Shown piece after piece: positions 270 through 61,427 of a stretch of DNA of 64,000 nt; the stretch's first letter is position 1, and each line of letters begins with the position of its first letter. Both the position numbers and the translations under genes were made by a program. The stretch is from a virus. The notes under the pieces were generated by a model. The model was not told the origin of the DNA and did not search any database. It saw nothing but the letters and a program-made list of their open reading frames with translations. Location: positions 1 through 64,000 of IMG/VR virus record IMGVR_UViG_3300017917_000733, one strand, 5' to 3'.

Positions 270-1373
270 TTATAGCCCTGCTAAACGCTTGAGTTCGATA
301 ACATTAGATGTGTCCTCGACTTCAACTTGTTGTTTGGCAGCTTGTTTATCTCCAGTAGCTTCTGTTACTTTTGATTCTGAGATTACTGCCTTTGCAGGCT
401 TCTTCTCAAGACCAGTGTTTAACACTGCTGGTAGATACTTATCGAAAGCGGCTTGTAGACGAGGTGTCTGGACGCTTTCTAGTAAGTTACGCATTGTGCT
501 TGCTTTTTCTTCATTTAATGTAGATAGCAATTCGCTCATTGTCTTCTCACGTAGATTAGACTCTTTGATAATGCGAACTTCACGTTCTTTTGATTCCACT
601 AATTTCTTAGCTTCGTTGACTTTTGCAACGGATTCAGCTAGTTGTTGATCCTTTTCTGCAAGTTGTTGCATTAGTTTGCGTGTTTCAGATTTCTCATTTA
701 AGTGAGTAACGCTGAATTCGCTAGCAAAACTTTCGAAAATACGACGACCAAAATTGTTCTCACGAGCAACTTTGATATCTTCTTTCAACTGGCTTAATTC
801 ACCCTTTAACTGGCCTGCTACAGCGGCGCTAACTCTCTTAGCACTTTCGGCAACAAATTTTGCCTTCAATGCTTCAAGTTGTTGACGACCTTCAGCAACC
901 AACTTAACCTTAGCTTCAACAACTGCTTGCTTGTCTTGTGCAAATTCTTTAATTTCACGAGCAAGAGCATGAACAATGAATTGTTCCAATTTTTCTTGGC
1001 TTTCTTTCATTGCCTTACGGTCGCTACGCAATTCTTTGATTTCTTCAGCTAGTTTAGTAACCATGAAATCATTGAACTTTGTTGCATTTTCACGTAATTT
1101 TTGTTGTGCAGCAATACGGTCTTCGTTCATCGCTTGTCTTTCAGATTGGAATTCTTCAATTTCACTCTGTAGACTATCTGTGACCATCTTGTCAAGGGCT
1201 TCTACCATTACAAGTCTGTCATGTTCATAACGTTGTGCGAATTCTTCGTGTAACTCTGCACGGACTTGCTCACGGGCTTCATTCAACTTAGACTCCCATG
1301 CTTCGTTTAAAGCCTGGGCTGTGTCTTCTTTGATTAGACCGCTTTCAAGTAATGGTTTGATAGCATCAAACAT
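270..1373 (-). CDS. 22: Prohead scaffold (core) protein gp22
   Basis: The 367-residue product is almost wholly charged alpha-helix with long coiled-coil segments (roughly residues 25-260), rich in Glu, Lys, Gln and Ala and lacking cysteine, as expected for the T4 gp22 scaffold around which the prohead assembles and which the prohead protease later degrades. A segment near residues 206-225 (ENNFGRRIFESFASEF) is characteristic of gp22 homologues in marine T4-like phages. It is longer than T4 gp22 (269 residues). The gene lies between protease and major capsid genes exactly as in T4, with 12 bases to the protease gene and 32 to gp23. The call rests on composition, motif and order. Confidence 0.88.
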   Translation of the reverse strand: MFDAIKPLLESGLIKEDTAQALNEAWESKLNEAREQVRAELHEEFAQRYEHDRLVMVEALDKMVTDSLQSEIEEFQSERQAMNEDRIAAQQKLRENATKFNDFMVTKLAEEIKELRSDRKAMKESQEKLEQFIVHALAREIKEFAQDKQAVVEAKVKLVAEGRQQLEALKAKFVAESAKRVSAAVAGQLKGELSQLKEDIKVARENNFGRRIFESFASEFSVTHLNEKSETRKLMQQLAEKDQQLAESVAKVNEAKKLVESKEREVRIIKESNLREKTMSELLSTLNEEKASTMRNLLESVQTPRLQAAFDKYLPAVLNTGLEKKPAKAVISESKVTEATGDKQAAKQQVEVEDTSNVIELKRLAGL

Positions 1374-2036: not shown

Positions 2037-2852
2037 TTAAATGCGCTTCTTAGCTGTCTTTGATTCAGCTACTGGGCTCTTTGTGTTAACACCTGTAGCT
2101 TGAGTCTTAGTTGGAGCAGGAGCTTTTTCTAAGTCTTGACCAGCTTGTGCAGGAGCATTCTTGAATGATCCAGCGCCTTTAACTTGTGTCTCGCCTTTAG
2201 CATAAGCATTGCTTGGAGCTTTAGGACTTGTAGGAACTGCTTCTGCGTCACCAGAGAATTTAACTGGCTTGCTTGCCATTCCTGTTTGACCTGCGTTAGC
2301 TGCTACTGTACTTGTTGTTTGTGCGCCATTGTCACCGTGTGTTACGGAAACTTTCTTCAATGTAATTGCTTCCATGACAGACTCATCCATTTCGTCTTCT
2401 TCGTCATCGGATGCTTCCATCATATCTTCTTCATCATCAGCTTCTTCGCCTTCTTTTTCGTCAGCTTCTTCGCCGCCCATGATTTCTTCAAATTCTGCCA
2501 TTAGTTGGTCTAGCTTGTCTTCTAAATCAACAACACGGTCTTCTAAATCTTCTTCGCCTTCGCCTTCTTCGTCGTCGGCTTCAATGTCAACAACTTCGTC
2601 TTCACCGTCGTCATCATCCATAGCATCAACATCTAAATCTTCTTCTTCTGTCATGCCTTCTTCTTCAGCACCGATTTCGTCTAGTAGATCACCTACTTGA
2701 CCATGCATTCCCTCGTCCATTTCATCAGCCATCATTGACTCATAAATTTCACGGGATTTTTCAACCACGATATCGTGGAATAGTGCTTTAGCTTGTTCTT
2801 CGTTCTCATTGATAATTAGGTCAATGAGTTGTTCAAATTTTTTGTTATCCAT
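2037..2852 (-). CDS. Acidic prohead core protein (gp68/gp67 position)
   Basis: A 271-residue protein whose middle third (about residues 40-165) is dominated by Glu and Asp, followed by a Thr/Ala/Pro/Lys-rich tail ending KTAKKRI. The N-terminus (MDNKKFEQLIDLIINENEEQ) is a short amphipathic helix. By synteny it occupies the slot of the T4 prohead core proteins gp67/gp68, which are packed in the scaffold and cut into internal peptides by gp21; such proteins diverge greatly in sequence but keep an acidic character. No enzyme motif is present. The start has a strong ribosome site (AGGAG) 8-12 bases upstream. Assignment to gp68 rather than gp67 is by order only. Confidence 0.6.
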   Translation of the reverse strand: MDNKKFEQLIDLIINENEEQAKALFHDIVVEKSREIYESMMADEMDEGMHGQVGDLLDEIGAEEEGMTEEEDLDVDAMDDDDGEDEVVDIEADDEEGEGEEDLEDRVVDLEDKLDQLMAEFEEIMGGEEADEKEGEEADDEEDMMEASDDEEDEMDESVMEAITLKKVSVTHGDNGAQTTSTVAANAGQTGMASKPVKFSGDAEAVPTSPKAPSNAYAKGETQVKGAGSFKNAPAQAGQDLEKAPAPTKTQATGVNTKSPVAESKTAKKRI

Positions 2853-2889
2853 TATTTTTTTCTCCTGATAGAAATGGCTTGTGTAGTAT

Positions 2890-2897
2890 TATTTAGT
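2890..2897 (-). promoter_or_regulatory. Candidate late promoter before the acidic core protein gene
   Basis: Minus strand reads ACTAAATA, the form also found at 7427-7434 and 61430-61437. It lies just beyond a terminator hairpin and 37 bases before the start at 2852, so it would restart transcription for the core protein, protease, scaffold and capsid genes. Confidence 0.5.
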
Positions 2898-2910
2898 GGG
2901 TAGCATAAAA

Positions 2911-2936
2911 AAGAGCACAATAAGTGCTCATTTTTT
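2911..2936 (-). terminator. Bidirectional intrinsic terminator
   Basis: Perfect 6-bp stem GAGCAC (2913-2918) / GTGCTC (2924-2929) with a 5-base loop. It is followed by a run of T on either strand: TTTTTT at 2931-2936 on plus, and six T on minus opposite 2907-2912. On the minus strand it would stop transcripts arriving from the portal and 74-codon genes. Confidence 0.7.
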
Positions 2937-2966
2937 ACGTTTTTGACTAGAATATAGAAATTTTTG

Positions 2967-3191
2967 TTACATTGCAGGCTGTTGTTCGCCTTTTGGTGCA
3001 TATTGGTCGTGAATTTTTTTCAAATATTTTTTCTTTTCGTATGTTCTAACATCCAGCATTCTACGTAGTTTACGTATCTGTCTTAGTGTTAATTTAGTTT
3101 TTCTAGACTCACGCCACTTAGGTGCCGAGTTATCAGATTCTAAATCTTGATACCCCGGTATCGCAGCGTCAAACATTTCAAATAGTTTCAT
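2967..3191 (-). CDS. Small basic prohead core protein, gp67-like by position
   Basis: A 74-residue product, close to T4 gp67 in size (80), lying directly after the portal gene as gp67 does in T4. The N-terminus MKLFEMFDAA resembles the conserved first residues of gp67-type proteins of marine T4-like phages. The central segment (about residues 30-66, KTKLTLRQIRKLRRMLDVR) is strongly basic and helical and recurs in annotated marine homologues. No Shine-Dalgarno sequence is evident; the start codon lies 7 bases after a late promoter octamer (3199-3206), so the late message would carry almost no leader. A terminator follows at 2911-2936. Confidence 0.6.
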   Translation of the reverse strand: MKLFEMFDAAIPGYQDLESDNSAPKWRESRKTKLTLRQIRKLRRMLDVRTYEKKKYLKKIHDQYAPKGEQQPAM

Positions 3192-7467: not shown

Positions 7468-8295
7468 ATGGTAAATCCAAATAACCCGTTAAAACAATTT
7501 TTCCGTAAACCAGCTGTGTATCTTAGATTACCTTCAGGAGGCAACTATGCACCTGGTGTAATTAACATGCCTGAAAACGGTGAGCTTCCTATATATCCAA
7601 TGACTGCGTTAGACGAAATCACAGTAAGAACACCTGATGCATTGTTCAACGGAGAAGCCGTATCTAGTGTTATTAGAAGTTGTGCCCCTAACGTTCTTGA
7701 TCCTTGGCGCCTTAATAATATAGATTTAGATGCTCTTTTGATATCTATACGTTCAGCTAGTGAAGGCAGTGAATTAGAAATAGACACTGTTTGTCCTAAC
7801 TGCAATGAAGAGGCCAAATATGGATTAAACTTAACTGCATGTTTAAGCCAATTGTCAATTAATGCATATCAAAATGAATTATCTTTAGGTGATTTGGCGA
7901 TTAAATTCAAGTCCTTGACTTATAAAGAAATCAACTACATAAACAATAAACAGTTTGAGATACAGAAATTATATACTCAAATTGAGAACATTCAAGATTT
8001 GGAAGAAAAATCAAAAAGAACCAAAGATATTTTTGTTCTAATCAATGAAGCTACTAACGTTGCGTTAGCAAAATCCATTGAATATATTAAAACCCCAAGT
8101 AGTGTAGTTACTGAACAAGAGTTCATACTTGAATTTCTATTAAATTGCGACAGTAATACATATGAAATTATAAAAGAGGAAAATGTATCTATTAAGAAAA
8201 ATTCAGAGATACAACCTTTAGATATCAAATGTATACATTGCCAACACGAATATAAACAACTGTTCACATTCAACATGTCTGATTTTTTCGGTTAA
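7468..8295 (+). CDS. 26: Baseplate hub assembly protein gp26 (tape-measure chaperone type)
   Basis: The 275-residue product matches the T4 gp26 family of marine phages. The N-terminal part contains RKPAVYLRLPSGGNY and the segment LPIYPMTALDEITVRTPDAL, which are family hallmarks. Two CxxC pairs, C109/C112 (CPNC) and C255/C258 (CIHC), could bind one zinc ion. gp26 acts in hub assembly; with gp51 it is regarded as a chaperone around the tape measure. The frame ends DFFG-stop at 8295, but the last codons contain a slippery heptamer (8283-8289) followed by a stem-loop, so part of the ribosomes probably continue in the -1 frame into gp51. The start has GAGG upstream. The neighbouring divergent gene is the tape measure. 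Confidence 0.85.
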   Translation: MVNPNNPLKQFFRKPAVYLRLPSGGNYAPGVINMPENGELPIYPMTALDEITVRTPDALFNGEAVSSVIRSCAPNVLDPWRLNNIDLDALLISIRSASEGSELEIDTVCPNCNEEAKYGLNLTACLSQLSINAYQNELSLGDLAIKFKSLTYKEINYINNKQFEIQKLYTQIENIQDLEEKSKRTKDIFVLINEATNVALAKSIEYIKTPSSVVTEQEFILEFLLNCDSNTYEIIKEENVSIKKNSEIQPLDIKCIHCQHEYKQLFTFNMSDFFG

Positions 8296-8519
8296 GGCTT
8301 CTATCCCTTGACCCCCAAGGGATCAAGAAGCTAATCGATAATATGGAAAAAGAATGTTCTGATATAAAGCGCAATGCATTACAGCTTGCGTGGTACATGA
8401 GGGGAGCAGTCAGTTATACTGAAGTTTTGAATATGTCCGCAGAGGAACGAAACCATATTAATAAATTGATAGAAACTAACTTAGAAACTACTAAGAAATC
8501 AGGTCTACCATTCTTCTAA
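7468..8519 (+). CDS. Predicted gp26-gp51 frameshift fusion protein
   Basis: Predicted -1 frameshift product: 274 residues of gp26 through the TTC codon at 8287-8289, then 76 residues read from 8289 in the -1 frame, 350 in all. The joint reads SDFF-RLRLLSLDPQGIKKL and continues into the gp51-like segment. The -1 frame is fully open from the slippery site to the TAA at 8517-8519, including the 54 bases before the first gp51 ATG, which have no other coding explanation. This mirrors the G/GT tail-chaperone arrangement of lambda and many other tailed phages, made next to the tape-measure gene. The existence of the fusion is inference from sequence signals. Confidence 0.65.
8283..8330 (+). promoter_or_regulatory. 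Programmed -1 ribosomal frameshift signal
   Basis: Slippery heptamer T TTT TTC at 8283-8289 in the gp26 frame, 3 bases before its stop codon (TAA 8293-8295). After an 8-base spacer (8290-8297) comes a stem-loop: outer stem CTTC 8298-8301 with GAAG 8327-8330, inner perfect 8-bp stem ATCCCTTG 8303-8310 with CAAGGGAT 8316-8323, and a 5-base loop ACCCC. Heptamer, spacing and stimulatory stem are all as expected for -1 frameshifting, and the -1 frame opens into gp51. Confidence 0.75.
8343..8519 (+). CDS. 51: gp51-like baseplate hub assembly protein (58-codon reading frame)
   Basis: From the first ATG in this frame the product is 58 residues, MEKECSDIKRNALQLAWYMR onward, ending TTKKSGLPFF. That ending and the preceding WYMRG..SY.EVL.MS.EER pattern are what small marine T4-like proteins annotated as hub assembly catalyst gp51 look like. 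T4 gp51 itself is much longer (249). No Shine-Dalgarno precedes the ATG and the bases before it form the frameshift stem, so independent initiation looks poor. The segment is probably made mainly as the C-terminal part of the gp26 frameshift product. Function in helping tape-measure/hub assembly is inferred from family and neighbours. Confidence 0.65.
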   Translation: MEKECSDIKRNALQLAWYMRGAVSYTEVLNMSAEERNHINKLIETNLETTKKSGLPFF

Positions 8520-8556
8520 TTAAACCCGTAACTGTTCATTTATCACTTCGGGGGAA

Positions 8557-8624
8557 CATCTTTTTTCTTTTAAAGATGAACTTCGTTCATCTAGAACTTC
8601 GCTATCGCTCAGTTCTTATTTTTA
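8557..8624 (+). terminator. Terminator zone with three hairpins after gp51
   Basis: Hairpin 1: CATCTTT 8557-8563 / AAAGATG 8572-8578. Hairpin 2: GATGAAC 8575-8581 / GTTCATC 8585-8591, loop TTC. Hairpin 3: AGAACT 8593-8598 / AGTTCT 8611-8616, followed by TATTTTTA. Hairpins 1 and 2 share 8575-8578 and cannot both form. Hairpin 3 with its T-run looks like an intrinsic terminator for the gp26/gp51 message; on the minus strand the same stems could end the candidate RNA coming from the right. Confidence 0.55.
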
Positions 8625-8640
8625 CGGTAATCTATTGTCT

Positions 8641-9030
8641 AGTACTTTCTTTAATTATTACATTAAGGAATACATATTGCCGCTTTGAAGCCATGGTAGT
8701 GCTATTCAGCACCACCAATGGTTAAGGGTACACTTGCCATGCCCGTCATCCATAGTCACTTATGCCCGTACTGTCGCCGTCTTTGCTGACACAATACGCT
8801 ACCGGTTGCTCTGTAAAGTTTATGGCCTGTAGTGTAGCCATGTATTCTCTAAGTAATACACGCTACCGCAACGCACATTCTATAACATCAAAGTGAAATA
8901 GTTATAGACTTGTTGAGTGTTCGCTTTGTCGATTGCACTCTCGGTATTCCAAGACTCTCACGAATCTCGCATACTCCAGATCCATCGGCGTTATTCACGC
9001 TTCTTCAAGGAGGTCCTGCAGCCAGGACGA
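8641..9030 (-). ncRNA. Candidate large structured non-coding RNA, family not recognised
   Basis: About 390 bases without any reading frame of note on either strand, noticeably richer in G+C than neighbouring genes and packed with stems. In plus coordinates: GTCCTG 9013-9018/9023-9028; GCGT 8988-8991/8997-9000; AGACTC 8952-8957/8962-8967 inside GTAT 8944-8947/8971-8974; GAGTG 8915-8919/8936-8940; an 8-bp stem 8879-8886/8901-8908; a two-layer hairpin 8834-8838/8862-8866 over 8841-8846/8855-8860, closed by GTTGC 8805-8809/8868-8872; and a 13-bp hairpin 8691-8703/8708-8721 with one bulge. In two stems a G-U pair on the minus strand would be an A-C mismatch on plus, and one minus-strand loop is GUGA (GNRA type), so the RNA is read leftward. 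It follows the nuclease gene. Short direct repeats: ATGCCCGT at 8740 and 8762. No tRNA, tmRNA, RNase P, 6S or group I core was recognised. It could belong to, or resemble, the ornate phage RNAs (GOLLD/ROOL type). Confidence 0.55.
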
Positions 9031-9048
9031 CAAATTTTTACTTTAAAA

Positions 9049-9606
9049 TTAGGTATTAATAGTTAGGGAATTTTCTGGTGTTGACATGGTGTCTGTTGTT
9101 GAATATGTTTTTAATAATTCAGTGTTGAGTTGAAAGAAACTGTCAAATTCGAAAATTATCCAGTCTCCGTATTTTTTTGAAGTGTAATATAAGAAATTAT
9201 CAGATACCCACGTTAATTTGCTTTGTACACAAACATAACGACCTTTGCGATTAAATTTCATAAACAATATGTTTACGTCATTAGGATCAGCAACATCTAA
9301 CAATTGATCTAGCCAACCGTCTAAAACTTTACATTCCCCTGTAAGTAATAGATGAAACGGGAAGTCTGCATAGAACTTGCATTCGATATTCATGTTTTTG
9401 AATGAATGTCCGGGAACAACATCGCCCTTGAATGAACGAATCTGCCCCTCATGCAATATTTCTTTGCGTACTTGATTCTTCCCGCCCACATAAGCTCCAG
9501 ATCCTGGTGCACGAATGAAAGACTCACCGTATTTTTCTGATAAAAATTTAGCTATTTCTCGTTCGTAACCCGAACCTTTTTGTTTCTGTGGACTTGGCAT
9601 AATCAT
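9049..9606 (-). CDS. PD-(D/E)XK endonuclease (Hjc/RecB-like)
   Basis: The 185-residue protein opens with KQKGSGYEREIAKFLSEKYG, an N-terminal helix with the conserved Glu (E15-E17 region) of Holliday-junction-resolvase-like nucleases. A catalytic Asp follows in FKGDVVPGHSF and the E-x-K pair in NIECKFYADF (about residues 72-81). This is the PD-(D/E)XK metal-dependent nuclease core. Downstream are aromatic-rich strands and an unstructured Thr/Ser-rich tail. It sits 29 bases after gp46, in the same direction as gp46/gp47/gp55, so it probably acts in phage DNA recombination or branch resolution. T4 uses a different fold (gp49) for that, so this could be a functional replacement; that is inference. 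Two in-frame ATGs (9606, 9600) are possible starts. Confidence 0.75.
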   Translation of the reverse strand: MIMPSPQKQKGSGYEREIAKFLSEKYGESFIRAPGSGAYVGGKNQVRKEILHEGQIRSFKGDVVPGHSFKNMNIECKFYADFPFHLLLTGECKVLDGWLDQLLDVADPNDVNILFMKFNRKGRYVCVQSKLTWVSDNFLYYTSKKYGDWIIFEFDSFFQLNTELLKTYSTTDTMSTPENSLTINT

Positions 9607-21424: not shown

Positions 21425-21432
21425 TATAAATA
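21425..21432 (+). promoter_or_regulatory. Late promoter TATAAATA before gp25
   Basis: Exact T4 late consensus, 5 bases before the gp25 ATG at 21438. The expected start site is the A of the ATG, so the message may be leaderless; no Shine-Dalgarno is seen. Confidence 0.7.
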
Positions 21433-25340: not shown

Positions 25341-28300
25341 ATGGTAACACGCATTCGAACACTAAATTTTCTACCAGACATTTTTAAAACTACAACTAAC
25401 TCGCAGTTTTTAAATGCAACGTTAGATCAGATAGTACAGCAACCTAATACTAGAAAAATTGAAGGTTATATAGGTAGCAAATTTGGTTATGGTGTAAACG
25501 CAACAAACAAATATGTAGTTGAACCAAATAAAACAAGAACAGATTACCAATTAGATCCAGGCGTTGTCTTTTTAAAGAAAGATACTGGATTCGCACAAGA
25601 CTTTATCAGTTATCCTGGAATCATTGATGCTCTTAATCTTGCAGGTGGAGTTACCAATGATAACAGTAGAATGTTTGAAAGCCAATTCTATTCATGGGAT
25701 AGCTTTACAAACTTAGATAAAATAATTAACTTCAATCAATATTACTGGGTACCAGAAGGACCCGAAGCTGTCACAGTCTCTACAGGAATTGTTTATAAAG
25801 ACGAAAATTATGTCGTAACTGATACCCCTAACGGTTATTTAATTTCTGCTGAAGGATCATCCCTCTCTACTACAAACCCATACCTAACATTATTACGTGG
25901 TGGTACATACACGTTCACAGTGGACCAAAATACACAGTTTTGGATACAAGGTGTTCCTGGTGTAACTGGCTTTGACCCAGCACAAGTTAATGTACAAACT
26001 CGTGACGTTTTAGGTGTTGAAAATAACGGTGCTACTCAAGGCGTAATTACTTTTACTGTCCCCGAAAAAGATGCACAAAATGAATATGATGTACCTGGCA
26101 ATAACTCAGTTGATATTGTAACAACATTGCCGTTTGCTCAAGTCAATGGCGCTCTTATATCTGCGATTAATGGTCTTGACGGCATCACTTCATTAGATGG
26201 ATTAACGTTAATGTTCTATGACACAGGGGTTGAAAATGAACAAGGATTCATTCAACCTGTTTCTGGTCCTGGATATTATACCGATGTTGCTGCTACTTTT
26301 TATCAGATAACAGTTGACAACGGTCAAATAATACTAAGCGATTATGCTCCGATTCCTACGGGAGAAAAAATTACAGCTAAGTACGGTACTCAGTGGATCG
26401 GTAGAAGTTTCTTTAGAAATACGTTTGGGCAGATTACTTTAATTCCTTACTTGAGTGCAGTTTTAGATACACTCTACTATCAAGATGGTTCTTCTGAAAA
26501 CAAAGTAGGTCAATTACGTTTAATTGAAGCAAACGCAACTGATAGAATCAATATAATCGAAAATATTCTAGGAAGAAAAAATTATACTTCACCAAATGGA
26601 GTTGTTTTTACAAATGGTTTAAAAATTATTTTTGACGGTAATATATATCCAACATCTTATGAAAATACTGAATACTATGTTGAAGGTGTAGGTACAGCTA
26701 TAACGTTAATTCCAGTAGATGAAACTTTAGTACCGGAACCATTTACATTTGGATCATATATTCCTTATGACACGTTAAATTATGATATTGGAAACTATGA
26801 TGTTGGTTTATATGTACCAGTAACACCCGATTACATAACAATTGCTAGAAATGCAATTAATAAGAATGCGTGGAGTCGCAGTAATCGTTGGTTCCACATT
26901 GATGTTTTGAATGCTACAGCAGCATATAACAATAATCCTGATTTATTAAGTTTGTATACAACTAATGACAATAAAGCAAAAAGACCTATTATCGAGTTTT
27001 ATCCAAACCTAAGATTGTTTAACTCCGGTATAGTGGGTAAAGCACCAGTCAACTTTATTGACCAAAGAACAACTGATGCATTTACATATGTTGCAGGCCA
27101 AGAGAATTACTACCCTGATGTTCAAGTGTACACTGCCTACACTGCAACTATCAATGCGGCATCTGGATCAATAATTACTACAGCAACAGCTACTACCGCG
27201 AACCCAAATAACGCTATCGTTTGTACTAGTACTGCTGGATTTAGAAAAAATGATAAGGTTACATTTACTGGTACTACTTTTGGTGGAATAACAGCTAGCA
27301 CAACATATTATATTGAAAGTGTTGTAGATTCTACATCTTTCACTATAACTACCGAACAGAACGGTGACGTATTAGTACTCACTGCTGGTTCTGGTACAAT
27401 GACAGTTACCGTAAATCCTTTAACCACAACAATTGATGTTGCTACAAGCGATATTACCGGAACACTTCAAGTTGGACAATACGTAGTTGATAGTACAAAC
27501 TTGCTACCAATAAATTCTCGCATTCAAAGTATTTCATCAACAAGCGGAACAACTACTATTGTTGTATATTGGGATGATGTTCAATCTGTATCAGGAACAA
27601 CTGTTGCATCCATTATAGCCAATGATATAAACAATGATAACTATCAATTATTCGACGGTGCTAGGATCGTTTTTACTGAAGACACTAATCCTGAAGTAAG
27701 AAATAAAGTATATGTAGCACATTTTGCAACTCCAGTAACTGGTGGCGACACAGTTATCACATTGACTCTTGCTGATGATGCTACTGTATTACCCTACGAA
27801 CAGGTGGTGGCATACAGCGGTTACAATAATTTAGGAAAAACATTTTACTTTGATGGTACTCAGTGGATACAAGCACAACAAAAAAATACAGTTAACCAAC
27901 CACCGTTGTTCGATGTGTTTGACAAAGATGGTATAAGTTTTGGTAATGAAACTGTATATCAAGGTACTAGCTTTACTGGTAATAAATTATTTGCTTACGG
28001 TATAGGTTCTGGTATAGAAGATATATATCTAGGATTTCCGTTAAGATACAGTTCAGTCGATAATGTAGGTGATATTAGCTTTGATGTATCGTTAAACCTA
28101 GACACATTTAATTATGTAAACACTTTAACTAACTCTCCTGTAACTAAAAAGGTAAACACAGGATATGTTTACAACTATACTGACATAGCAACGTATGACA
28201 GAATGCTTGGATGGCAAACAGCAATTGGACCTAGTGTTCAATATCAGCTATTTGAATTCAATTACTATGCTAGCAATCCAGTAACAAGTTATACATGTGA

Positions 28301-31300
28301 TATATCCATGTTGAACTCTACTGATAGTCCATGGCCAACTATTCAAGTATTTGTCAACAACGTTTTGCAGCCTAGAACAAGTTACACAACAACAGTAACA
28401 CCTAATTCTACTATTGTTAACTTTACAGTTCCTGAACCGTTGATTGATACTGTAGTTGAAGTTGCATTACTAAGTAATCAAGTTAGCAAAATAGGTTTTT
28501 ATGGAATACCAATTAATTTAAACAATAATCCATTAAACCAAGATTTGTCAGTTGTCAATATAGGTGATATTCGCGGCCAGTATCAAAGCATATATTACAA
28601 CAATCCTAATACTGTAGGTAATGTGTTTGGTCCAAATAACTATCGTGATTTGGGTGATGTAGTTCCTTATGGAACTAGAATAATTCAGAACAGCGCAAGT
28701 CTAGTTTTACCCGGTACTTTCCTAAGACAACAGAATCATAATTTATTTGATGCGTTGATGTTCAACAGCAAAGAATATATTAATTTCAAAACACTATTGG
28801 TAAGCACAGTAAACAACACTGATTACAACGTTTATCAAACGCCTGCGTTCATGTTAGATGATGCGCTAGACCAAATTACAGCAAACAAAACTGACGGTGA
28901 TCCCTTCTTCTGGTCAGACATGCTACCTGGTAAGTCAGCATACATCACAAATACATATAGCTTTGCCAACGCATTAGATATTAGCATCTATCCGTTAAGT
29001 AAAATTTATAATTTTAACACCGCAAACTACAATGGTGTATTGGTCTATCTAACACGTAACAACATAATAACACAATTGATTAATAATGTTGATTACACTG
29101 TAAGTGTTGACGCTCCTTCACTCACGGTGACATTAGATTTGTTACCTAATGACCAAATTACTATTAAAGAATACAATCAAACATATGGTTCATATGTACC
29201 TAACACCCCAACCAAGTTAGGACTATATCCATCTACTATTCCTAGCGTTGTTTTAGATTCTAACTATAACCAGCCTACATATTTTATAGTAGGACATGAT
29301 GGATCATATAACAAATTATATGGTGATTATGTTAATGGTCAACTAGTTGACTTTAGAGATAAGGTTTTACTAGAGTTTGAAACTAGAATTTACAACAACT
29401 TAAAATTAGGTGATACTTTACCTATAAGTGAGTATGACATACTACCTGGTTTCTTCAGAGATACAGACTATTCATACGATGAAATTCTTGAAATTTATTC
29501 ATCCAATTTCTTGAATTGGGTTGGTCAAAATAGAATTGATTACAAGACACAATATTATAATGCAAATAACGAATATACTTACAACTATAACCGTAGTGGT
29601 AACAAGATAAACAATGAGCCTATACCACAGGGTTATTGGAGAGGTATATATCAATATTTCTACGATACAGCAAATCCAGACACCATGCCATGGCAAATGA
29701 TTGGCTTTACAGACAAGCCAACCTGGTGGGAAACACGCTACGGTCCTGCACCATATACAAGTGACAACTTAGTATTGTGGGGAGATTTAGCACAAGGTAT
29801 TAACTGGAACAATGGAAACCCAGTCACATTATCTCAGTTTGTAAGACCAGAATTGTTACAAGTTTTACCTGTAGATAGCAACGGTGACTTAGTTTCTCCG
29901 TTCGTCGCTATAGTTAGAAACTACACAAGCCAAACATTCATGCGTGATTGGAAAGTGGGCGATGTAGGACCTGCTGAATTCAGCTATCGTCGTAGTAGCA
30001 CATGGCCATTTGACTTAATGAAAATAATGGCTTTAACTAAGCCTGCACAATTCTTCAATTTGGGCGTTGACTTAGACAACTATAGATACAACAGCGAATT
30101 TAACCAATACTTAGTAAATGATAGAAGTCATTTGATTATCAGCGATGTTGAAATCTATGGTAATGGTACAGCAAAGACAAGTTATATTAACTGGATTGTT
30201 GACTATGAAAAACAAGTTGGTATTGATGCAACGACAAACATTACTGATTTGCTAGACAACTTAGATGTTCGTTTAGTATATCGCCTAGCTGGATTCTCAG
30301 ACAAGAATCTATTAAAGTTCTATGTTGAAAAGGGTACACCAAACAGTAATAATGCAAGCCTGTTGATCCCTGACGAAAGTTATAGCGTATTATTATATGA
30401 TAATCCACCGTTTGACCGTATCATTTATTCCGGTGTAATCATTCAAATTAGCAATGACGGTTACTTTAAAGTATATGGCAACAGCCAAACTAATGCGTAC
30501 TTCAAAGTACTAAAGCCAAAAATTAATGGTAACTATGAAACAGTAACAGTAGACAACTACAGTGTTAAATTGCCTAACGATTACTCCGATATAGAAGAAG
30601 TAATTGCATACGGAACTACATTATATAGTATCCAAGAAGTTGCAACTTTCTTAAAGAGCTATGGAAAATATTTACAAAGTCAAGGTGTATTGTTTGAGCA
30701 AGTAGAAGTTGGTATGCCGATAACTTGGGAGCAAATGGTTGCTGAATTCTTGTACTGGGCACAAAGCGGCTGGGATATCGGTAGCATAATCAATATTAAC
30801 CCTGCAGCCAAATTGATTGCAATTGACAAAGTTGATAGTGTTGTGCAACCATTGACATTACAACGTCAAAACTTTATCTTAAATCAAAACTTGTATCCAA
30901 TACAATCAGTAGATTTAAGTGTTGTTCGTGATGGCACAGCATTTACTGCACAACCATTAAATCAAGGTGATACTGTTGCATATGGTCAATTTAATATGTA
31001 CAGTTTCGAACACGGTATTGTATTTGATAACGTTACATTATTTGATGATATCATCTACAATTTAGTTACCGGATTACGTCAGAACCGCATTTATGTTCGT
31101 GGAACAAAAACTGCTGAGTGGAACGGCACAATTGATGCACAAGGTTTCATCTTAAATCAAGACAACATTATTGAATGGAGCCCTGTAACTAAGTATACGA
31201 CTGGTTCTATCGTAACATACAAAAACAAATATTGGATTGCTACAAAGATAATTCAACCCGCAATGGTTTTCCAAGAAAGAGATTGGAAAGAAACAGACTA

Positions 31301-34300
31301 TAATGAAATTCAAAAAGGTCTATTACCAAACTCTAGTACTAGAAGCTATGAGTCTACTCTTTACTATGATGTAGATAAAGCTAACTTAGAACAAGATGCT
31401 GATTTATTAAGTTTCAGCTTGATCGGATATCGCCCACGTGATTATCTAGCATTGGCTGATTTAACAGACATAACACAAATTAACGTCTACAAAAACTTAA
31501 TAAAGAACAAGGGCACACGTAACGCTACTGAAGCATTCAAGGGTGCTACACTACCGCAAGGCGGCATTGACTATGATATCTATGAAAACTGGGCTATCAA
31601 GACCAGTGAGTTCGGTGGAGTACTTAACAATAACTTTGTTGAATTTAGATTAAATCAAACAGAGTTGACAGGTAATCCTAGTATAGTCGGTTTGACAACT
31701 GGATACTACACTAACGGGGTACAACAAGAAGTACCTTTATATAACCTATACAATTATGGAAGACCAGTAACTGATCCTAATGTATTGCCAGTAGTGCCAG
31801 CAGAAGAACCTTCAAAGTTATTCCCCGACGCTGGATATGTTAACTTCAATGATGTTAAGATTTCGTCTTACTTCTACTCAGGATTAATTAATAACACAGT
31901 ACCGTTAAGCAATTTATACGTAGGTGACTATGTTTGGTTAGCTAACTATCAAGGTACATGGAATGTAATGACACCTGTAAGTCAGGGTGAAGTAGTCTTG
32001 GCTAGAAGTATAGGAACAGATGTAGTTTCACTAACATTTGATAAACCACATAGCCTAACACAATACACACCTTTTGCTTTGATTAATTTCAATAGCAATT
32101 TAGATGGTTACTATATTGCTAATAGCATCGTTGATCCTTATACTATAACTATTACTATACCTAATTTAGGAACACCTTTCTTAACAGCAATTACAGGTAA
32201 TGGTATAGTTGTTACATTCCAATCAAATCGTGTAAGAAAAACCTCAGACATTACAAATCTACCATTACTAAACAATGAGTTTGTAAAAGACAAAGTTTGG
32301 GTTGATACTGCATCAAACGGCTCTTGGGCTGTATACCGCAAATCACTAAACTACCAGTATAGCAAAGAATTTACAAACGATGGTTCTTTAAACTACGGTA
32401 GCGCAGTAGCATACGCTGATTCATTTGGATACTTGATTGGAGATAACGAGTTAGGTGAAGTCTACAGATATGTTTACAACCCATTAAGAAATCGTTATGA
32501 TTTAGTGCAAACACTAACAGGTGATAGTTCATTTGGTTCGACAATTTCATACTCAGGTAATATTGTTGCTATTTCTCAGCCTACAGGTGCTACTGCATCT
32601 GATAGAAAAGTTAGAATTTATGAATATGTTTCTAACAATTTAGTTGATGAATTACAACTACTACAAACCATAGATGCACCTGATAGCTTGATTACTTCTT
32701 GGGGTAGTGCATTAGCTGTATCCGGTGACCTAAATTGGTTATATGTTTCTGACACCGCAAACAATACTGTTTATGTCTATCGTAAATCATTAGTTGACGG
32801 ACTATATGCATACTCTACTGTATTGCCAAGTGTATCAGGTTTAGTATCTGGTGACAATTTTGGTAGCTCACTGTCAACAAATTATTACGGCGATACTGTA
32901 ACGGTTGGAGCACCAAACATTGATGTTGGCGCATTAGCTGACGTTGGATATGCTTATGCGTTTGATAGACTATATCAAAACTTTGAAGCAGCAACCACAA
33001 GTATTCCGTTTGTTCCATTAACGTTTAACCTAGCAGTTACTGTAAGTACAACGTCTAAAACTGCAACAAATACTTCTGAAGGTGGTTTTGCGGATTACAT
33101 TAAGGTTACTAGTGGATTGACAGGTGTGTCAATAGATGATCCTGTAGTGTTCTCTGGCACAATATTATCTGCTGGCGCATTACAAGAAAATAGAATCTAT
33201 TATGTTGTTGATATATCAGGCTCAAGATTCAAAGTAAGCACAACTCGCGGCGGCGCTCCTGTAACATTGTCCACTGATACTGGAACAATGACATGCACAT
33301 TCCAAACTGAACCAGTGTTTGTCAGCGTTAACGGAACTACGCTTTCTGATGACAATTATTTTGTTGTAGGATCTGTATTAAGTGTTATAAGCACAATTAA
33401 CGCAGGTGATATTATCAATGTAAGCACATCTACATTCGTGTTATCACAAACATTTGCATCAGAAGATACTACAAGGGTAGGTCCTGAATTTGGTACTAGC
33501 GTTGCAAATAATAGCTATGCTACTGAAATATTAGTTGGCGCACCTTTTGAAATACGTGAAACAACCGGTGAAGGTGCAATTTATAGGTACACTAATAGCG
33601 GTGGAAAGTATGGCTACATCATTGGTACAGGTACCGTAGCCATTTCAGCTCCAACTACTATTTTGATTAATGGTTATGCAGTGTCATTAGTTGCGGGCGA
33701 TGCTACTAGTGTCGCAAACGCTATATTGGCAGCTAACATAACAAACGTAACCGCTAGTGCTGTTGACGGCAAATTAACAATTGCATTACTTAATACATCA
33801 TTGGCAACAGTAAATGATAAGTTAAATCTTGCAGTATTGAACGATTCAGATTGGGCTGAATTAGGAATTGACCTATACACAAGAACAGAAGTCATAACAT
33901 GCCCTCATACACAAGGCGCAACTCAATTCGGTACAGTTATTAAATTCAACGAGTATCAATCATTTGTAGCGAGTGCTGTATCTGGAAACAGATATGTTGG
34001 AACAACATTTGATAGCACTGATGACGAAAACTTTGACAACGACACTATATTTGACAACAACGCTACACAATTTGTAGATGTGTTCAAGAATGCAGGTGCT
34101 GTTTACATGTTTGATTACCTAGAGAATTATAATGAAACTTTATTAAATGTTGGTAAATTTGTTTATGCACAAAGCACAAATTCATTAAACACTGAGTATG
34201 GTAATCAACCTTTATATGGTAAGGCACTTGATTTTAATAACTATACAGTTGTTGTGGGTTCTCCTAACTTTGAATTTGACGGAAACTATGGTCAGGTTAT

Positions 34301-37300
34301 ATCTTATGTAAACGATATAAACGAGTCTGATTGGTTTATTTACAGAAATTCATCCAGTATTGTTGATATCAACAAAATTCAAAATGCACAATTGTTTAGT
34401 GCCGAAAATAACCAAACATTGGTTAACTTAGATTATATTGATCCACTACAAGGTAAAATTCTAGGGTCTGTAAGACAAAACATTGATATAGTGTCTAATA
34501 CTGATCCTGCTAATTACAACTCACCAAACGCTACTAACAAGGGAAGCATTGTTTGGGGACCTGAACAAGTAGGTCAAGTGTGGTTCAACACAAACAACGT
34601 AAGATTTGTTAACTATCATCAAAATGATGATGTAGAATATAATAGTCAATATTGGGGACAAGTTTTCCCGGGAAGTGATGTTGCTGTATATTCTTGGATA
34701 GCAAGCAATGAATTACCTGTCAACTATCAAGGTCCGGGAACACCGCATGATTTGGATTCATATGTAGTATTCAATACTCAAGATACGCGCGGTATGTTTG
34801 TTCCAGTATATTACTATTGGGTAAGAAACACAAATATCGTATTCACAAAGAGAGGAAAAACTCTTTCTGATACTATCATTGAATCTTATATTACTAATCC
34901 AAAGAACTCTGGAATAAGTTACTTTGCTCCATTGCTACCAAATGTATTTGGATTATACAACACAGATGAGTATGTAAACAATACTGATACTGTTTTCCAT
35001 GTAGGATTTAGTACAGGAACTAACGATGATGTAGCTCATGCTGAATACTCATTGATTCGTGCAAACTATGCTGACGATTTCTTACCTGGATTACCAATAA
35101 ACAATAATCAATCTCCAATATCTTTATATGATAGATTGTTAGATAGTTTATCTGGTGTTGATGAGACTGGCGCAGTTGTACCGGATCCATTCTTACCTAA
35201 AGCTGTTCAAAGTGGTATCTATGCTCGCCCAAGACAAAGTTTCTTTGTAAACCGTTTTGGTGCATTAAAGAATTACTTGACTTATGCAAATGAAATAATT
35301 GCACAGTATCCTATAACCGAAACTAAGAATGAATTAACGTTCTTGTTCAAAGTAGGTGATATTAATCCTTCTACTGGATTGCCGTTCTATGATACACAGA
35401 ATTTCTGGAACTATATTAACTGGTGGGCAACTGGATATGATAACAATACTAAATCTGTCTTGCAAGTACCTTTATACGCTGATTTGTCAGCATTAAGCGT
35501 ACCAGCAGGAACTATTGTTACTGTTGCTCAAAACAATAATGGTAATTCTGAAACTTATGTATTGCAAACTACAGGTACATGGGAGCGTATTGGATTACAA
35601 AATGGTACAATAGAATTCAAATCTACATTATGGGATTACAACGAAGGTAAGTTTGGATTTGGTGGTAGCTTCTATGATACTACAGTTTACGATGAGTATC
35701 CATCAGAAGAAACAAGATATATTATTCGTGCAATAAACGAACAAATATTTACAGACGAGTTATTAATTCACAGAAACAAAGGCTTGATTCTATTGTTTGA
35801 GTACATTCAATCTGAAACAATCGAATCACAAAACTATTTACCGTGGTTAAACAAAACTTCTCTAGTAGACGTATCACATACCATTCGTGAACTACGTCCA
35901 ATTGAAGTATTCCAGTCAGATAATCAACAATTCTTGTCTAGTTATTTGAATGAAGCAAAACCATATCACGTAGTAATTAAAGATTTCTTATTCAAGTATA
36001 CAGGTACAGATGTGTTTGAAGGTGATATAACTGATTTTGATTTACCTGCGAAATTCAATTTTGAAACAAATCAATTTATTACACCTGAATTAGTTTACAG
36101 CAGCCCATCTACTGTAAACCAGTATCTACCTACTGATTCAATCTGGCAAACAACAGATTACTCTCAGTGGTTCAATAATTATGGATTGAGTATTACAGGT
36201 GTTGATAATTATCAAATTACTGTATTGTCATCTTATATTGCTCTCAACTCTCAAACTATTGTTGTAGATAACGTAAGTGGCTTTCCTGTTAATGGAGTAA
36301 TACGTATTGGTGATGAACAAATAGGATATTCTGATGTTGATAGAAGTACGAACACACTATTTGGTTTAACTAGAGGTGTTAACGAAACAGCTATCACTAC
36401 ACATATACCAGGTGAAAACATCTATATCAATTTACCAGCAGCATTGTTATTAAACGCCGGTAGAGGATATGTAAATCCACCTAGAATAACAGCCTATATT
36501 GATACTTCAATATACCCTGAACCAAGGCAAGCTGCTATTTTAGAACCTGTAATGAATTTGGATAAAATTCTAAGCATTAACGTTATTAATCCTGGTGATG
36601 GTTACGCAGTTCTTCCTGAAATTATTATTGACCCATCAATAACAGTAAGTGTTAACTCTGATGATGTAAGTACCACAGAAAACACTATTCGCTTGTTGCA
36701 ACCTTTATTACAAACAGGTGACCTTGTCCGTTATACTGTCGGAGCCGACACAACAGCAATCGGCGGATTAGATAATGGTCAATATTATTATGTAAATGTT
36801 CTAGATACAACTCCATCATTTATCATAGCATTGTATACCACATATTCAAATGCAGTAAATGACGTAGACCGTGTAACTCTTTACTCAACAGGGTCAGGTT
36901 CAAACAACAACCTAAGCGTAAGTGCTAAGGCATCTTGCGTTACTAACTCACAGCCTATCAGAGAAAATCAAATTACTTTAAGATTTGACAGAACTTCTTA
37001 TAATTCTGAAATTACTGAATGGCAATCAGGCGAATTCTATGGTTCGTTCTATGCAGGTTTGTATAATAATAGCGAAACTATTTCTAGTTCTAGCATTGGA
37101 TTGTACGCAACGCAACCACCGATAGACACTATATTAGCTAGCTTTAGAGGTGCACCATTCCAAATTTCTAACGTTACTGATGACTTATCATTAACATGGT
37201 CATCCCGTACACGTAACGTAGTTTCTACTACATCTGGAACAAATGTAATTACTATCGAGCCTTCTGAAGGCGGTGCACCTGATATGGGATCAGTTAGCCC

Positions 37301-40300
37301 AACTACTGGTTTCTATGTTGGAATGCCGATAAAATTTGTTGGCTCTGTAGGTACTTCTGGATTATCTGACAGTACAACCTATTATGTTAATAACATAGTT
37401 AACGGTACTGATTTTACAGTATCTGCATCTAGCACTCTAACACCTACTGTTGCTCTAAACACCACAACAATAGGAACAGCTGGCTTATTAAGCTATATTG
37501 GTCAAGTGGTAGATACAACTATTATTACTATTGATTATCCTGGTATTAGAAACGTATCTGCAACAGCAGCTACAACCAACGCACTAACTGTAGATTTAAC
37601 ATTTAGTGGTCAAGGTGGCACATCTAGATTCTACCCAGGACTACCTATATCGTTTGTAGGAAATGTATTTGGGTCAGTCATCGAAAATGAAATATATTAT
37701 GTTACTACAATCATTGACGATCAGACCTTTACTATGTCAACTAACTCTGATCCAGAGTTGATTAACGTAACAGCAACCAATTCTTCTGGTAACATTATTA
37801 CTTGTGAAAGTACTTTAGGATTAAGCGTAAACGATCCAGTCATATTCAACAATATGACTATTAGTGGGTCTACAGTAAGTAGTTTTGGTGGCATCACAAG
37901 CGGAATTATCTATTACGTAGCAACTGTATTATCACCAACCACATTTACTATTGCAACCGCACCAAACAGTTCTGCAATTAGTTTAACCACACAAGCTGCT
38001 GGAACTGGTACAGGCTGTATTGTCACAAATCAAAAAGATACAGCACAACTTTCAACTGCTACTGGTAATATGACGTTGAACGTTGGACTTCCATTAAGCC
38101 CAGGGCAGGTCAATGGTCAAAGGTTTACATTGTACCAGTCAGTGCCTGAATTTGGGAATACAACACCGTACACTAATATAACTGGAACAACTGGTGACTT
38201 ACTAACATATACTATAACACACACTGTCTCTGCAGGAGATGAAATCATCTTATTCACAAGCGGAGGAAGCATTTTTAGTAATATGTATGTAAACATGCCG
38301 TTCCGAGTAGCATCAAACATTGGTAACTTGACAACAGGTACAACATATTATATTACTGATTTTGGTAATGTAACAACAACTGTTACAGGAACAGCTACAC
38401 CAAGCAACATATTAACGTGTAATTCGACTGATGGTTTTTATGTTGACATGCCAGTAAAGTTCTCAGGAACATCATTGGGTGGAATAGATTTAAACACTAC
38501 ATATTTTATTGTTAATATCAATAGTTCAACTGAATTCGAAATTAGCACTACTATGGGCGGAAGTAGTTTTGCTGTATACGCTGATGCTGGAACAATGACA
38601 GTTACAGGTTCACCCTATATTACAGCGTCTACATCTATAGGTGGTTTAAATGTTACACTATCCGATGCAACAGGTAACGTGACAGCAACACAATATGTAA
38701 CAGGCACACCTATATTTGATATAGGATATACATTGGGCGGTTACTATGTTGATAACATAGTAGATGCTGGTTCAGGTTTCGCAGTAACCAATACTATTAC
38801 TATTTTGGGTAGCGATGTAGGTGGAGTAGATGGGGTCAATGATTTAACTATTATGGTCAATACAGTTGATACACAAGGTGAAATATTGACAACAATCGTA
38901 GAAGGTACACCTCCAGGCACAGTCAGTTATTATTACTTGAAAGTAATTTCTGAAACTCAATGTGAAGTTTACTATGACCCATTGATGCAAATACCTGTAC
39001 CTATCAACGACTTTGTATACGTTCAAGGTGATTACGCATTATTACCAGAACCATTCTACTTTAACCAAAGTATTGTGAAATATGGTAATAATGTTTATCA
39101 GTGTATTGTAAGTAACAACGACACTGAATTCATTCCTGGTAAATGGTTATTATTGGATAGTGGCAGTAGAGAATTAAACGCATTAGATAGAATCATCGGC
39201 TACTACAAACCAGAAAAGTCTAACGACCTAGCATGGCAAAATTATATCAACATGCCTGGCTTGGATTTAACTCAATTAGTAAGAGGTATCGTATATCCTA
39301 ACAGCACTTACTTAGGAAATGCATTTGCACCAGATGAAGAATTCCCGTTAGATGTAATCTTACAGGATCAACCTTTCACACCTAGTAATGTTGATATCAA
39401 AGCAGTAATTTACGATGGTTCTGCATATTATGCACCTGCTGTTATTATTGATGACTACTCAGCGTTATTAGTAAGTCAAGACGGTGTAACTTGGAATATT
39501 GAAAAACTTGCAGAGCAACCTATCGATTTCACGGATATGATATACGCTAACTCTAGATACTTGATAGCATCAGATAATAATGCTATATCATTGTTATTTG
39601 GATACACTGGAACTATATATTCACCGATAGTCACAGGTGCTCAATTAAATAGCATAGCGTACAATAACGGAACATTTGTCACTGCAGGCAACAAGATAAT
39701 AAGGTCTACTGATTTAGAAGTATGGACTGACGTTTATACATTTACAAATGGCTATAATAATACAATTAACAGTGTATCTTATGTTGATGTAGCATTCTTT
39801 ACTGGTTTCATTGCTGTAGGTAAAACTGTTATTCCTGGAGGCTCAGGACAATATGGAATTATTTTAACCAGTATTGACGGTGTAGTATGGACACAATCAG
39901 CGTTCACACTTGCTGATTATGGATTAAATTCTGTTGCAGCAAATTCTGACTACATTGTAGCTGTAGGTGAAAATGGATCTATCATATCATCTACTAATGC
40001 ATCTAACTGGGTACAAGAAGTTTCTGGTACTACTGAAACATTGAACAATATTGTTTGGGGATATGATAAATTTGTAGTTGTAGGTGGAAACACTACAGGT
40101 ACTATAATAACAGCACCTAGCACACCAACTACATGGACATTACAAACATCAGGTACAACTGAGTTGTTAAATGATGTTGTATATAATTCATTAGGTGATG
40201 AGTATATTGTAGTAGGTGAAAATAATACTATCCTACAAAGCTCAGATGCTATTACTTGGGTAAACCAATCTAAAATTTTACTTGAGCCAACAAAATACAA

Positions 40301-61419: not shown

Positions 61420-61427
61420 TATAAATA
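61420..61427 (+). promoter_or_regulatory. Late promoter TATAAATA for the 32-codon and carbamoyltransferase genes
   Basis: Exact late consensus, expected start near 61433, 16 bases before the ATG at 61449. Two bases separate it from the opposing octamer. Confidence 0.65.

Follow-up and report, generated by a model that had tools for sequence, protein, structure and literature searches.

Gene neighbourhood and extent of the RNA

The stretch of 64,000 nucleotides analysed here (the window) is one part of a 121-kb phage record of IMG/VR. Judged from its predicted genes the phage is T4-like, because the window encodes a portal protein of the T4 Gp20 family (PF07230, 355 bits), a late sigma factor, an SbcD-like gp47 and an AAA_23 gp46-like protein. 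The genes for the late sigma factor (13671-12772), gp47, gp46 and a resolvase follow one another leftward on the minus strand, the first three corresponding to the gp55-gp47-gp46 run. The RNA described here occupies the gap behind them, with the stop codon of the resolvase directly 5' and the convergent pair of orf58 and baseplate hub genes beyond its 3' end. No same-strand gene lies directly downstream in the window; the next minus-strand gene starts past orf58 and the hub gene, at 7400. A single plus-strand ORF of 6017 amino acids (about 18 kb, 25341-43394) is found elsewhere in the window. The features of the locus are:

7468-8295, plus strand: T4-type baseplate hub gene (PF12322, phrog_150), convergent neighbour
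8343-8519, plus strand: orf58, an ORF of 58 amino acids without Pfam or PHROG match, syntenic in relatives, convergent neighbour
8574-8592 and 8593-8616: two inverted repeats, putative transcription end, with compensatory variants in relatives
8676-9031, minus strand: conserved structured RNA body of about 356 nt, predicted from nhmmer matches in 200 of 200 sources, the alignment of 125 distinct copies, and covariation
9049-9606, minus strand: predicted resolvase gene, PDDEXK_15/RusA-like (PF24608, 87.9 bits; phrog_244), upstream gene
9083-9093, minus strand: mini-hairpin GAC-ACCAU-GUC inside the 3' end of the resolvase ORF, the only copy in the window (0.05 expected)

On comparative evidence, window positions 9031-8676 are a noncoding RNA gene of T4-like phages. 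An earlier note on this DNA had placed a structured RNA without reading frame at 8641-9030 on the minus strand; this span was nearly exact, as the conserved RNA runs from 9031 to 8676, and the longest overlapping ORFs comprise 49 amino acids in frames that are not kept across homologues. When all six frames were read in each of the 125 homologues, the longest stretch free of stop codons was 66 codons at the median, between extremes of 41 and 123. An AUG after the last hairpin (P9) is conserved in 124 of the 125 copies; translation from this codon was rejected, since the peptide would vary from 3 to 64 residues among the copies, with frameshifts. The single-sequence fold of the minus strand is mildly unusual at most (z -2.54; 2 of 100 shuffles equally stable), and that of the plus strand gave a z of -1.25 (13 of 100).

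No promoter of its own was recognised for the RNA; two nearby promoter-like sites, fewer than in shuffles, lie on the plus strand. A late promoter of the type TATAAATA was considered and is not found at the RNA. The word TAAAAATT just 5' of P1, kept in most but not all relatives, was likewise dismissed, its frequency in the window being at chance. TATAAATA occurs twice in the window (21425-21432 and 61420-61427, plus strand; 9.45 expected), 6 and 121 nt before plus-strand ORFs, and these two sites are possibly T4-type late promoters in a stretch that otherwise avoids the word. At the 3' side, the terminator zone proposed in the earlier note is retained as the pair of inverted repeats listed above; a consensus scan, however, scores no terminator there.

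No Rfam family reaches its gathering threshold in the window, and a permissive scan of 8400-9200 (E<=5) gave nothing credible; the two matches to RAGATH-30 (8582-8625; 20.3 bits, cut-off 59.5) and sR16 (8513-8567) were taken as chance. Among 13 loci of the window clade, the Rfam search gave two matches at E<=2, both far under their cut-offs. ARAGORN finds no tmRNA in the window, and the number of tRNAs in the 64 kb is zero. A blastn search of GenBank phages with the window RNA and four RNAs of other branches gave no match, and no RNA above noise was found, also with the covariance model R1 described below, in the isolate phages SCTP-2, Phosso, Atu_ph07 and PA5oct, whose resolvases or hubs are related. 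No description of such an RNA was found in the accessible text of open-licence PMC papers, and the main text of a report on large freshwater phages, as far as accessible, makes no mention of noncoding RNA or Rfam (PMC7674155).

Homologues, fold and strand

Of 278 loci obtained in a resolvase search of IMG/VR the best 80 were used; with the gap as blastn query, similarity was detected right behind the resolvase in 79 of these 80; in the exception (L067) the contig ends at the position of the RNA. At least 118 further loci were collected from IMG/VR with a pattern taken from one conserved segment of the RNA, irrespective of the resolvase. These loci, together with the window and its own copy (L001), make up 200 sources, and the nucleotide profile (nhmmer) matches in all 200, of which the 118 pattern-fetched loci contain the RNA by construction. 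Near full-length copies, present in 187 of the 200 sources, were collapsed to 125 distinct copies with 56-100% identity to the window, and 13 partial copies were dropped; these family sizes are lower bounds, and some loci share one contig. The covariance model of the core (R1) detects one strong copy in each of 11 viral records of up to 524 kb; two of the records also give weaker matches, with E values of 0.17 and 0.97 that do not rise above noise.

In 188 of the 200 sources the RNA and the resolvase are no more than 200 nt apart. Of the other 12, eleven have the RNA less than 500 nt from the start of the contig; in the twelfth (L168) the resolvase is replaced by a gene for a SegE-type GIY-YIG endonuclease (2653-3096, minus strand; PF19835, 113.9 bits), and the RNA is retained. 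Convergent orf58 follows downstream in 191 sources, and the other nine end within 1.2 kb. When a more divergent resolvase was used as query, the RNA was found in 36 of 69 loci, with one further locus (L216) cut by the contig end. The remaining 32 (L244-L275), which carry a more distant resolvase, have no RNA within 1.5 kb of it as searched with profiles, covariance model and motif; in 28 of these the resolvase visibly points the other way with respect to gp46 or the hub gene. Single motif matches in L264 and L265 were discarded as without supporting context. A single fixed locus between the predicted gp55-gp47-gp46(-resolvase) and orf58-hub genes is shown by this comparison.

Of 121 distinct regions upstream of the RNA, 120 carry the mini-hairpin (the exception being L117), which has a 3-bp stem and an A-rich pentaloop (mostly GAC-ACCAN-GTC) and lies 55 nt (median) ahead of the profile start; the 121 regions are related and therefore do not represent 121 independent cases. 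The same loose definition matches in 33 of 1,000 random segments of the same loci. As a rule the element extends into the resolvase ORF at its 3' end; in L168 it lies behind the stop codon of the gene that takes the place of the resolvase. The stem is GAC/GTC in 120 copies, GAG/CTC in 18 and GTC/GAC in one, and such swaps of both strands suggest an element that acts at the nucleotide level, as RNA or DNA; it is probably a protein-binding or processing mark of the RNA transcript. In L151 (6412-7074, minus strand) the C-terminus of the resolvase has grown into ENNS-type repeats, and a run of GAG-AACAA-CTC mini-hairpins precedes the RNA.

The predicted helices, all on the minus strand, are listed below with window positions and, in brackets, local positions (local i = window 9043 - i):

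9013-9028 (15-30): hairpin P1; covarying pairs 20/25 (94% paired) and 19/26 (85% paired)
8974-9012: P2 (31-34/66-69), CUCC 9012-9009 with GGAG 8977-8974, enclosing hairpin P2a (about 9004-8984)
8949-8971 (72-94): P3, hairpin of variable length with GNRA loop
8946-8942 with 8804-8800 (97-101/239-243): core helix UACCG/CGGUA, closing the four-way junction of P4, P5 and P6
8915-8940 (103-128): hairpin P4; 5 pairs, 4 changed on both sides, 100% paired
8875-8913 (130-168): hairpin P5; 11 pairs, 10 changed on both sides, 95.9% paired
8896-8891 with 8761-8756 (147-152/282-287): distal pseudoknot PK of the P5 loop; 6 pairs, 5 changed on both sides, 99.6% paired
8805-8872: P6 (8872-8867/8810-8805; 171-176/233-238) with hairpin P6a (8866-8834)
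8826-8824 with 8766-8764 (217-219/277-279): pseudoknot helix P7, interleaved with P6
8767-8798 (245-276): hairpin P8; 11 pairs, each changed on both sides, 94.3% paired
8676-8717: hairpin P9 (8717-8694; 326-349), nearly invariant in sequence, and conserved 3' tail

All 500 cells of P2 are paired, with CUCU/AGAG variants in L078 and L152. P3, which was outside the set of tested pairs, has a GNRA loop with four closing pairs in 82 of the 125 copies and extra arms in L063, L100, L145, L138 and L196. In the core helix 97.9% of the cells are paired and four of the pairs are invariant; its first pair is changed on both sides in 7 of the 47 diverse members and fails in 5. P6 is paired in 95.4% of the cells and the outer pairs of P6a in 78.7%; the three pairs of P7 are each changed on both sides, with 100% of the counted cells paired. 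Many unpaired positions of the RNA are invariant among relatives.

Several of these elements had already been seen in the single sequence: the nested three-stem domain at 8805-8872 is exactly P6 plus P6a, the GNRA-type GUGA loop is that of P3, and the 13-bp hairpin with GAAU loop is P9, for which, however, the consensus stem has 10 bp. Both pseudoknots (PK and P7) and the long-range core helix were absent from the earlier note.

Standard pairs account for 97.0% of the 9,215 cells when all tested pairs are counted in the 125 copies. In a diverse subset (A1/A2) of 47 copies, chosen greedily at less than 86% identity, 42 of the 53 core pairs are changed on both sides, and 95.6% of the cells are paired, compared with 78.8% after shuffling and 32-40% with slid partners. 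A tree-based null (60 simulated alignments) was limited to columns of more than 60% occupancy; inferred substitutions were moved along the tree and to any column, with rate differences between columns ignored. Against this null 23 column pairs have E<=0.05, and 18 of these are canonical and lie within helices, including two pairs of PK. The other five were left uncounted: two cross-phase P5a pairs, two that pair more weakly (local 19/26 and 176/233), and the noncanonical local 301/360. The last (window 8742 and 8683) covaries as G-G/U-U/C-C and passes the tree null; it may be a tertiary contact.

The stems are kept by compensatory change in homologous regions, so the structured-RNA reading survives the check by which it could have been refuted. 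The strand, predicted at first from G-U pairs, is likewise borne out across the family: there are 414 G-U cells versus 51 A-C cells, and because of this asymmetry the minus strand is taken as the RNA strand. The predicted fold of P1 to P9 with its four-way junction and two pseudoknots, and its strand, are shown by comparison of the homologues.

A wider family including RF01718

Five relatives found via the resolvase of Salicola phage SCTP-2 (L277-L281) appeared at first to be missing the RNA. Behind the resolvase they have about 600-1300 nt without a long ORF, carrying the motif GGUACnGnnCAACCGCC; in L278 this stretch comes after an extra ORF of 320 amino acids, and in L277, L279 and L280 it precedes convergent orf58 and hub genes as in the window. 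Two of the five match Rfam family RF01718 (L277, 93.5 bits; L279, 96.2 bits; cut-off 37), so far an orphan family of 141 nt. The motif occurs in at least 120 stretches of IMG/VR, of which 20 were scanned and 12 match RF01718; in the one locus measured (L309), the 3' end of the RF01718 match lies about 105 nt upstream of the motif. RF01718 (Polynucleobacter-1) is found among open-licence PMC papers, in their accessible text, only in a table of PMC2864571.

Among the 125 superfamily loci (the at least 120 motif stretches and the five relatives), gp46 precedes the RNA and convergent orf58 and/or hub genes follow it in 59, in some cases with further genes intervening; of the remainder, 50 have one of these flanks, one (L278) has the resolvase only, and 13 have no matched gene. 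In all, orf58 and/or the hub gene are convergent downstream in 94 of the 125. The RNA of L286 and L291 shares its strand with the hub gene and orf58, and because of this and the varying flanks the RNA is not bound to one operon. The strict mini-hairpin is found upstream in 14 of 111 superfamily loci: three of these copies fall within resolvase ORFs, eight within a single different ORF that those loci share, and three outside ORFs of at least 50 codons.

Two clusters of 45 and 36 distinct regions comprise 81 of the 106 distinct superfamily regions with enough flanking sequence. Outside the training set, the cl0 profile matches L277-L281 (E 1e-8 to 4e-71) and the cl1 profile L277, L279, L280 and L281 (E 1e-12 to 1e-24). 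Profiles confirm 120 of the 125 loci, having been built from 81 of the same loci; the failures are L311, L313, L337, L368 and L378.

A possible similarity to the window clade in sequence is suggested by its profile, which matches in 4 of 119 regions (L290, L345, L384, L307; E 1.7e-5 to 6.9e-4), each on the expected strand and in a collinear place, mostly via the P2a and P2 strands, in one 5' segment of 45-70 nt; two non-significant matches lie at the same place, and two are noise. In the reverse direction the matches are weak: the cl1 profile reaches E 0.009-0.06 in 3 of the 125 window-clade RNAs and 0.012-0.077 in eight window-clade loci of a second set, and the cl0 profile matches none of the 125. 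R1 with filters off, applied to five loci of other branches, gave nothing significant, with E 0.092 at the expected place in one of them (L281) versus 0.064 at an unrelated place (L280).

P6 (a GUUG/CAAC-type helix), P7 and PK (from the P5 loop to a segment 3' of P7) are present in both other clusters with independent covariation: 12 of 21 pairs are changed on both sides in A3 (24 of the 36 members of one cluster) and 11 of 20 in A4 (24 of the 45 of the other), and none of 500 shuffles reaches either count. In A3, 14-15 of the 24 sequences do not form the last two PK pairs, P6 is nearly invariant in both sets, and in A4 one measure, that of further pair types, does not exceed the shuffled level (235 of 500). 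P8 and P5, whose alignment is unsure, do not enter these counts.

RF01718 forms the 5' part of many of the RNAs that related T4-like phages carry at the corresponding locus; like the window RNA, these contain PK, P6 and P7 in the same order. The window RNA itself, however, has no RF01718 match at the gathering cut-off of 37 bits, at E<=5 in 8400-9200, or at E<=1 across the whole 121-kb record. Its 5' domain is a different one, and the RF01718 branches have another 3' region where the window RNA has P9. In several RF01718-branch RNAs (e.g. L296, L321, L345) two CUnnGAUGAU-type repeats around a hairpin lie 3' of the core; no counterpart was recognised in the window RNA. The window RNA and the RF01718-branch RNAs very probably share common descent; alternatively, recombination or exchange of the 5' domain alone could account for the likeness. 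The evidence is good but not complete that the window RNA is a divergent branch of a superfamily of phage RNAs of which Rfam holds only a fragment. The statement of the earlier note that no standard RNA family applies is, accordingly, right for the window and has to be amended for its kin in other branches.

In bacterial genomes the window-clade pattern has no match. The superfamily pattern occurs in at least 119 stretches, of which L476 alone has an extended match to a family profile (E 1.9e-31); the others among the matches listed cover about 20-35 nt around the pattern at E 4e-4 or worse, the chance level expected for 15 fixed bases. The contig of L476, which is 4.4 kb long and was assigned to a Methylococcaceae MAG, carries an RF01718-branch RNA (379-764, plus strand); it is possibly a phage contig, with a faint hint of a methanotroph host.

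Proposed role and comparison with known RNAs

We consider the RNA to be, with a probability of roughly 0.6, a stable RNA that acts in trans. It would be transcribed with, or just after, the early/middle recombination genes; the transcript would end at the inverted repeats (8616-8574), and the RNA would persist as a stable compact molecule, acting in trans as RNA or RNP. Trans action is suggested because many unpaired positions are invariant, because the neighbouring gene can be swapped with the RNA kept, and because there is no downstream gene to regulate; the invariant unpaired positions are better explained by a specific binding partner or an active site than by a knot that only confers stability. 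In a more far-reaching form, which we offer as a tentative proposal, the RNA would be a double-pseudoknotted trans-acting machine of a new class, catalytic, ribosome- or polymerase-directed, or self-assembling like GOLLD and ROOL, which has been kept for very long at one T4-like locus; RF01718 would be its visible tip and the mini-hairpin its dedicated protein or processing mark.

The position just past the resolvase stop codon, with the inverted repeats at the end facing the convergent genes, would also suit a 3'-UTR element of the gp55-gp47-gp46-resolvase mRNA, in which the knotted RNA would stop exonucleases or colliding transcription and thereby control early-operon expression at the convergent junction. 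In L286 and L291 the RNA is likewise 3' of same-strand genes, so that it lies 3' of a same-strand gene cluster in both orientations seen, a place that would fit such a role. We regard it as rather unlikely, however, since such an element would need little sequence conservation, yet many unpaired positions are invariant; furthermore, the immediate upstream gene is swappable (L168), and the resolvase is unmatched in many superfamily loci. A DNA element (a replication origin or packaging site) with palindromes that merely look RNA-like is very improbable: the fixed single-copy locus and the nearly invariant inverted repeat of P9 would fit, but the G-U to A-C asymmetry of 414:51 fits a folded minus-strand RNA and not symmetric DNA, and the covariation of the pseudoknots also speaks against it.

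The pairings of group I intron cores follow the order P3-P7-P8, and P6, the P7 pseudoknot and P8 of the window RNA are interleaved in an order that resembles it. Together with many invariant core nucleotides and the covariation of P6, P7 and P8 in the window clade (of P6 and P7 also in the two further clusters), this would be compatible with a ribozyme that could cleave, ligate or cap itself or other RNAs. Group I intron cores, however, usually have a strand joining P7 and P8, whereas P8 of the window RNA abuts P7 without one; the RNA starts behind a stop codon and interrupts no exon, and there is no split gene. No ribozyme or intron family of Rfam matches the window, none comes near its threshold in the 13 window-clade loci, and a Hovlinc match in L280 is far under its cut-off, so that we hold a ribozyme to be improbable. 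The table mentioned above that lists RF01718 has columns that we take to be RNA, cis-regulatory and riboswitch. In its row for Polynucleobacter-1, which seems to be marked 'y y ?' (PMC2864571, 2010), a riboswitch-like cis-regulatory leader would find some backing; this reading is, however, already disfavoured and its chance slight, since no same-strand gene lies directly downstream and convergent orf58 and hub genes come next, as in the 94 superfamily loci counted above.

The RNA is single-copy and has a fixed place in the T4-like phage backbone. Through it the orphan Rfam family RF01718 is set in a genomic context and extended by a long additional region of conserved structure. The well-supported two-pseudoknot fold and 125 natural variants make structure determination, probing and knock-out directly feasible.

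To our knowledge, large phage RNAs of unknown function are few, and GOLLD and ROOL are the named examples. GOLLD is a large, elaborately folded, phage- or prophage-borne RNA of unknown function, ROOL is phage-borne with multiple pseudoknots and no known protein partner, and both form RNA cages, according to the accessible text of PMC12286853. The likeness to both that the earlier note had drawn holds in style and does not extend to family membership: the window RNA matches neither family in Rfam, members of GOLLD exceed 800 nt and the window RNA is under half that size, and GOLLD and ROOL are often near tRNA islands, whereas the window has no tRNA. The window RNA has in common with GOLLD that it is a large, elaborately folded, phage-borne RNA, and with ROOL that it is phage-borne and contains multiple pseudoknots.
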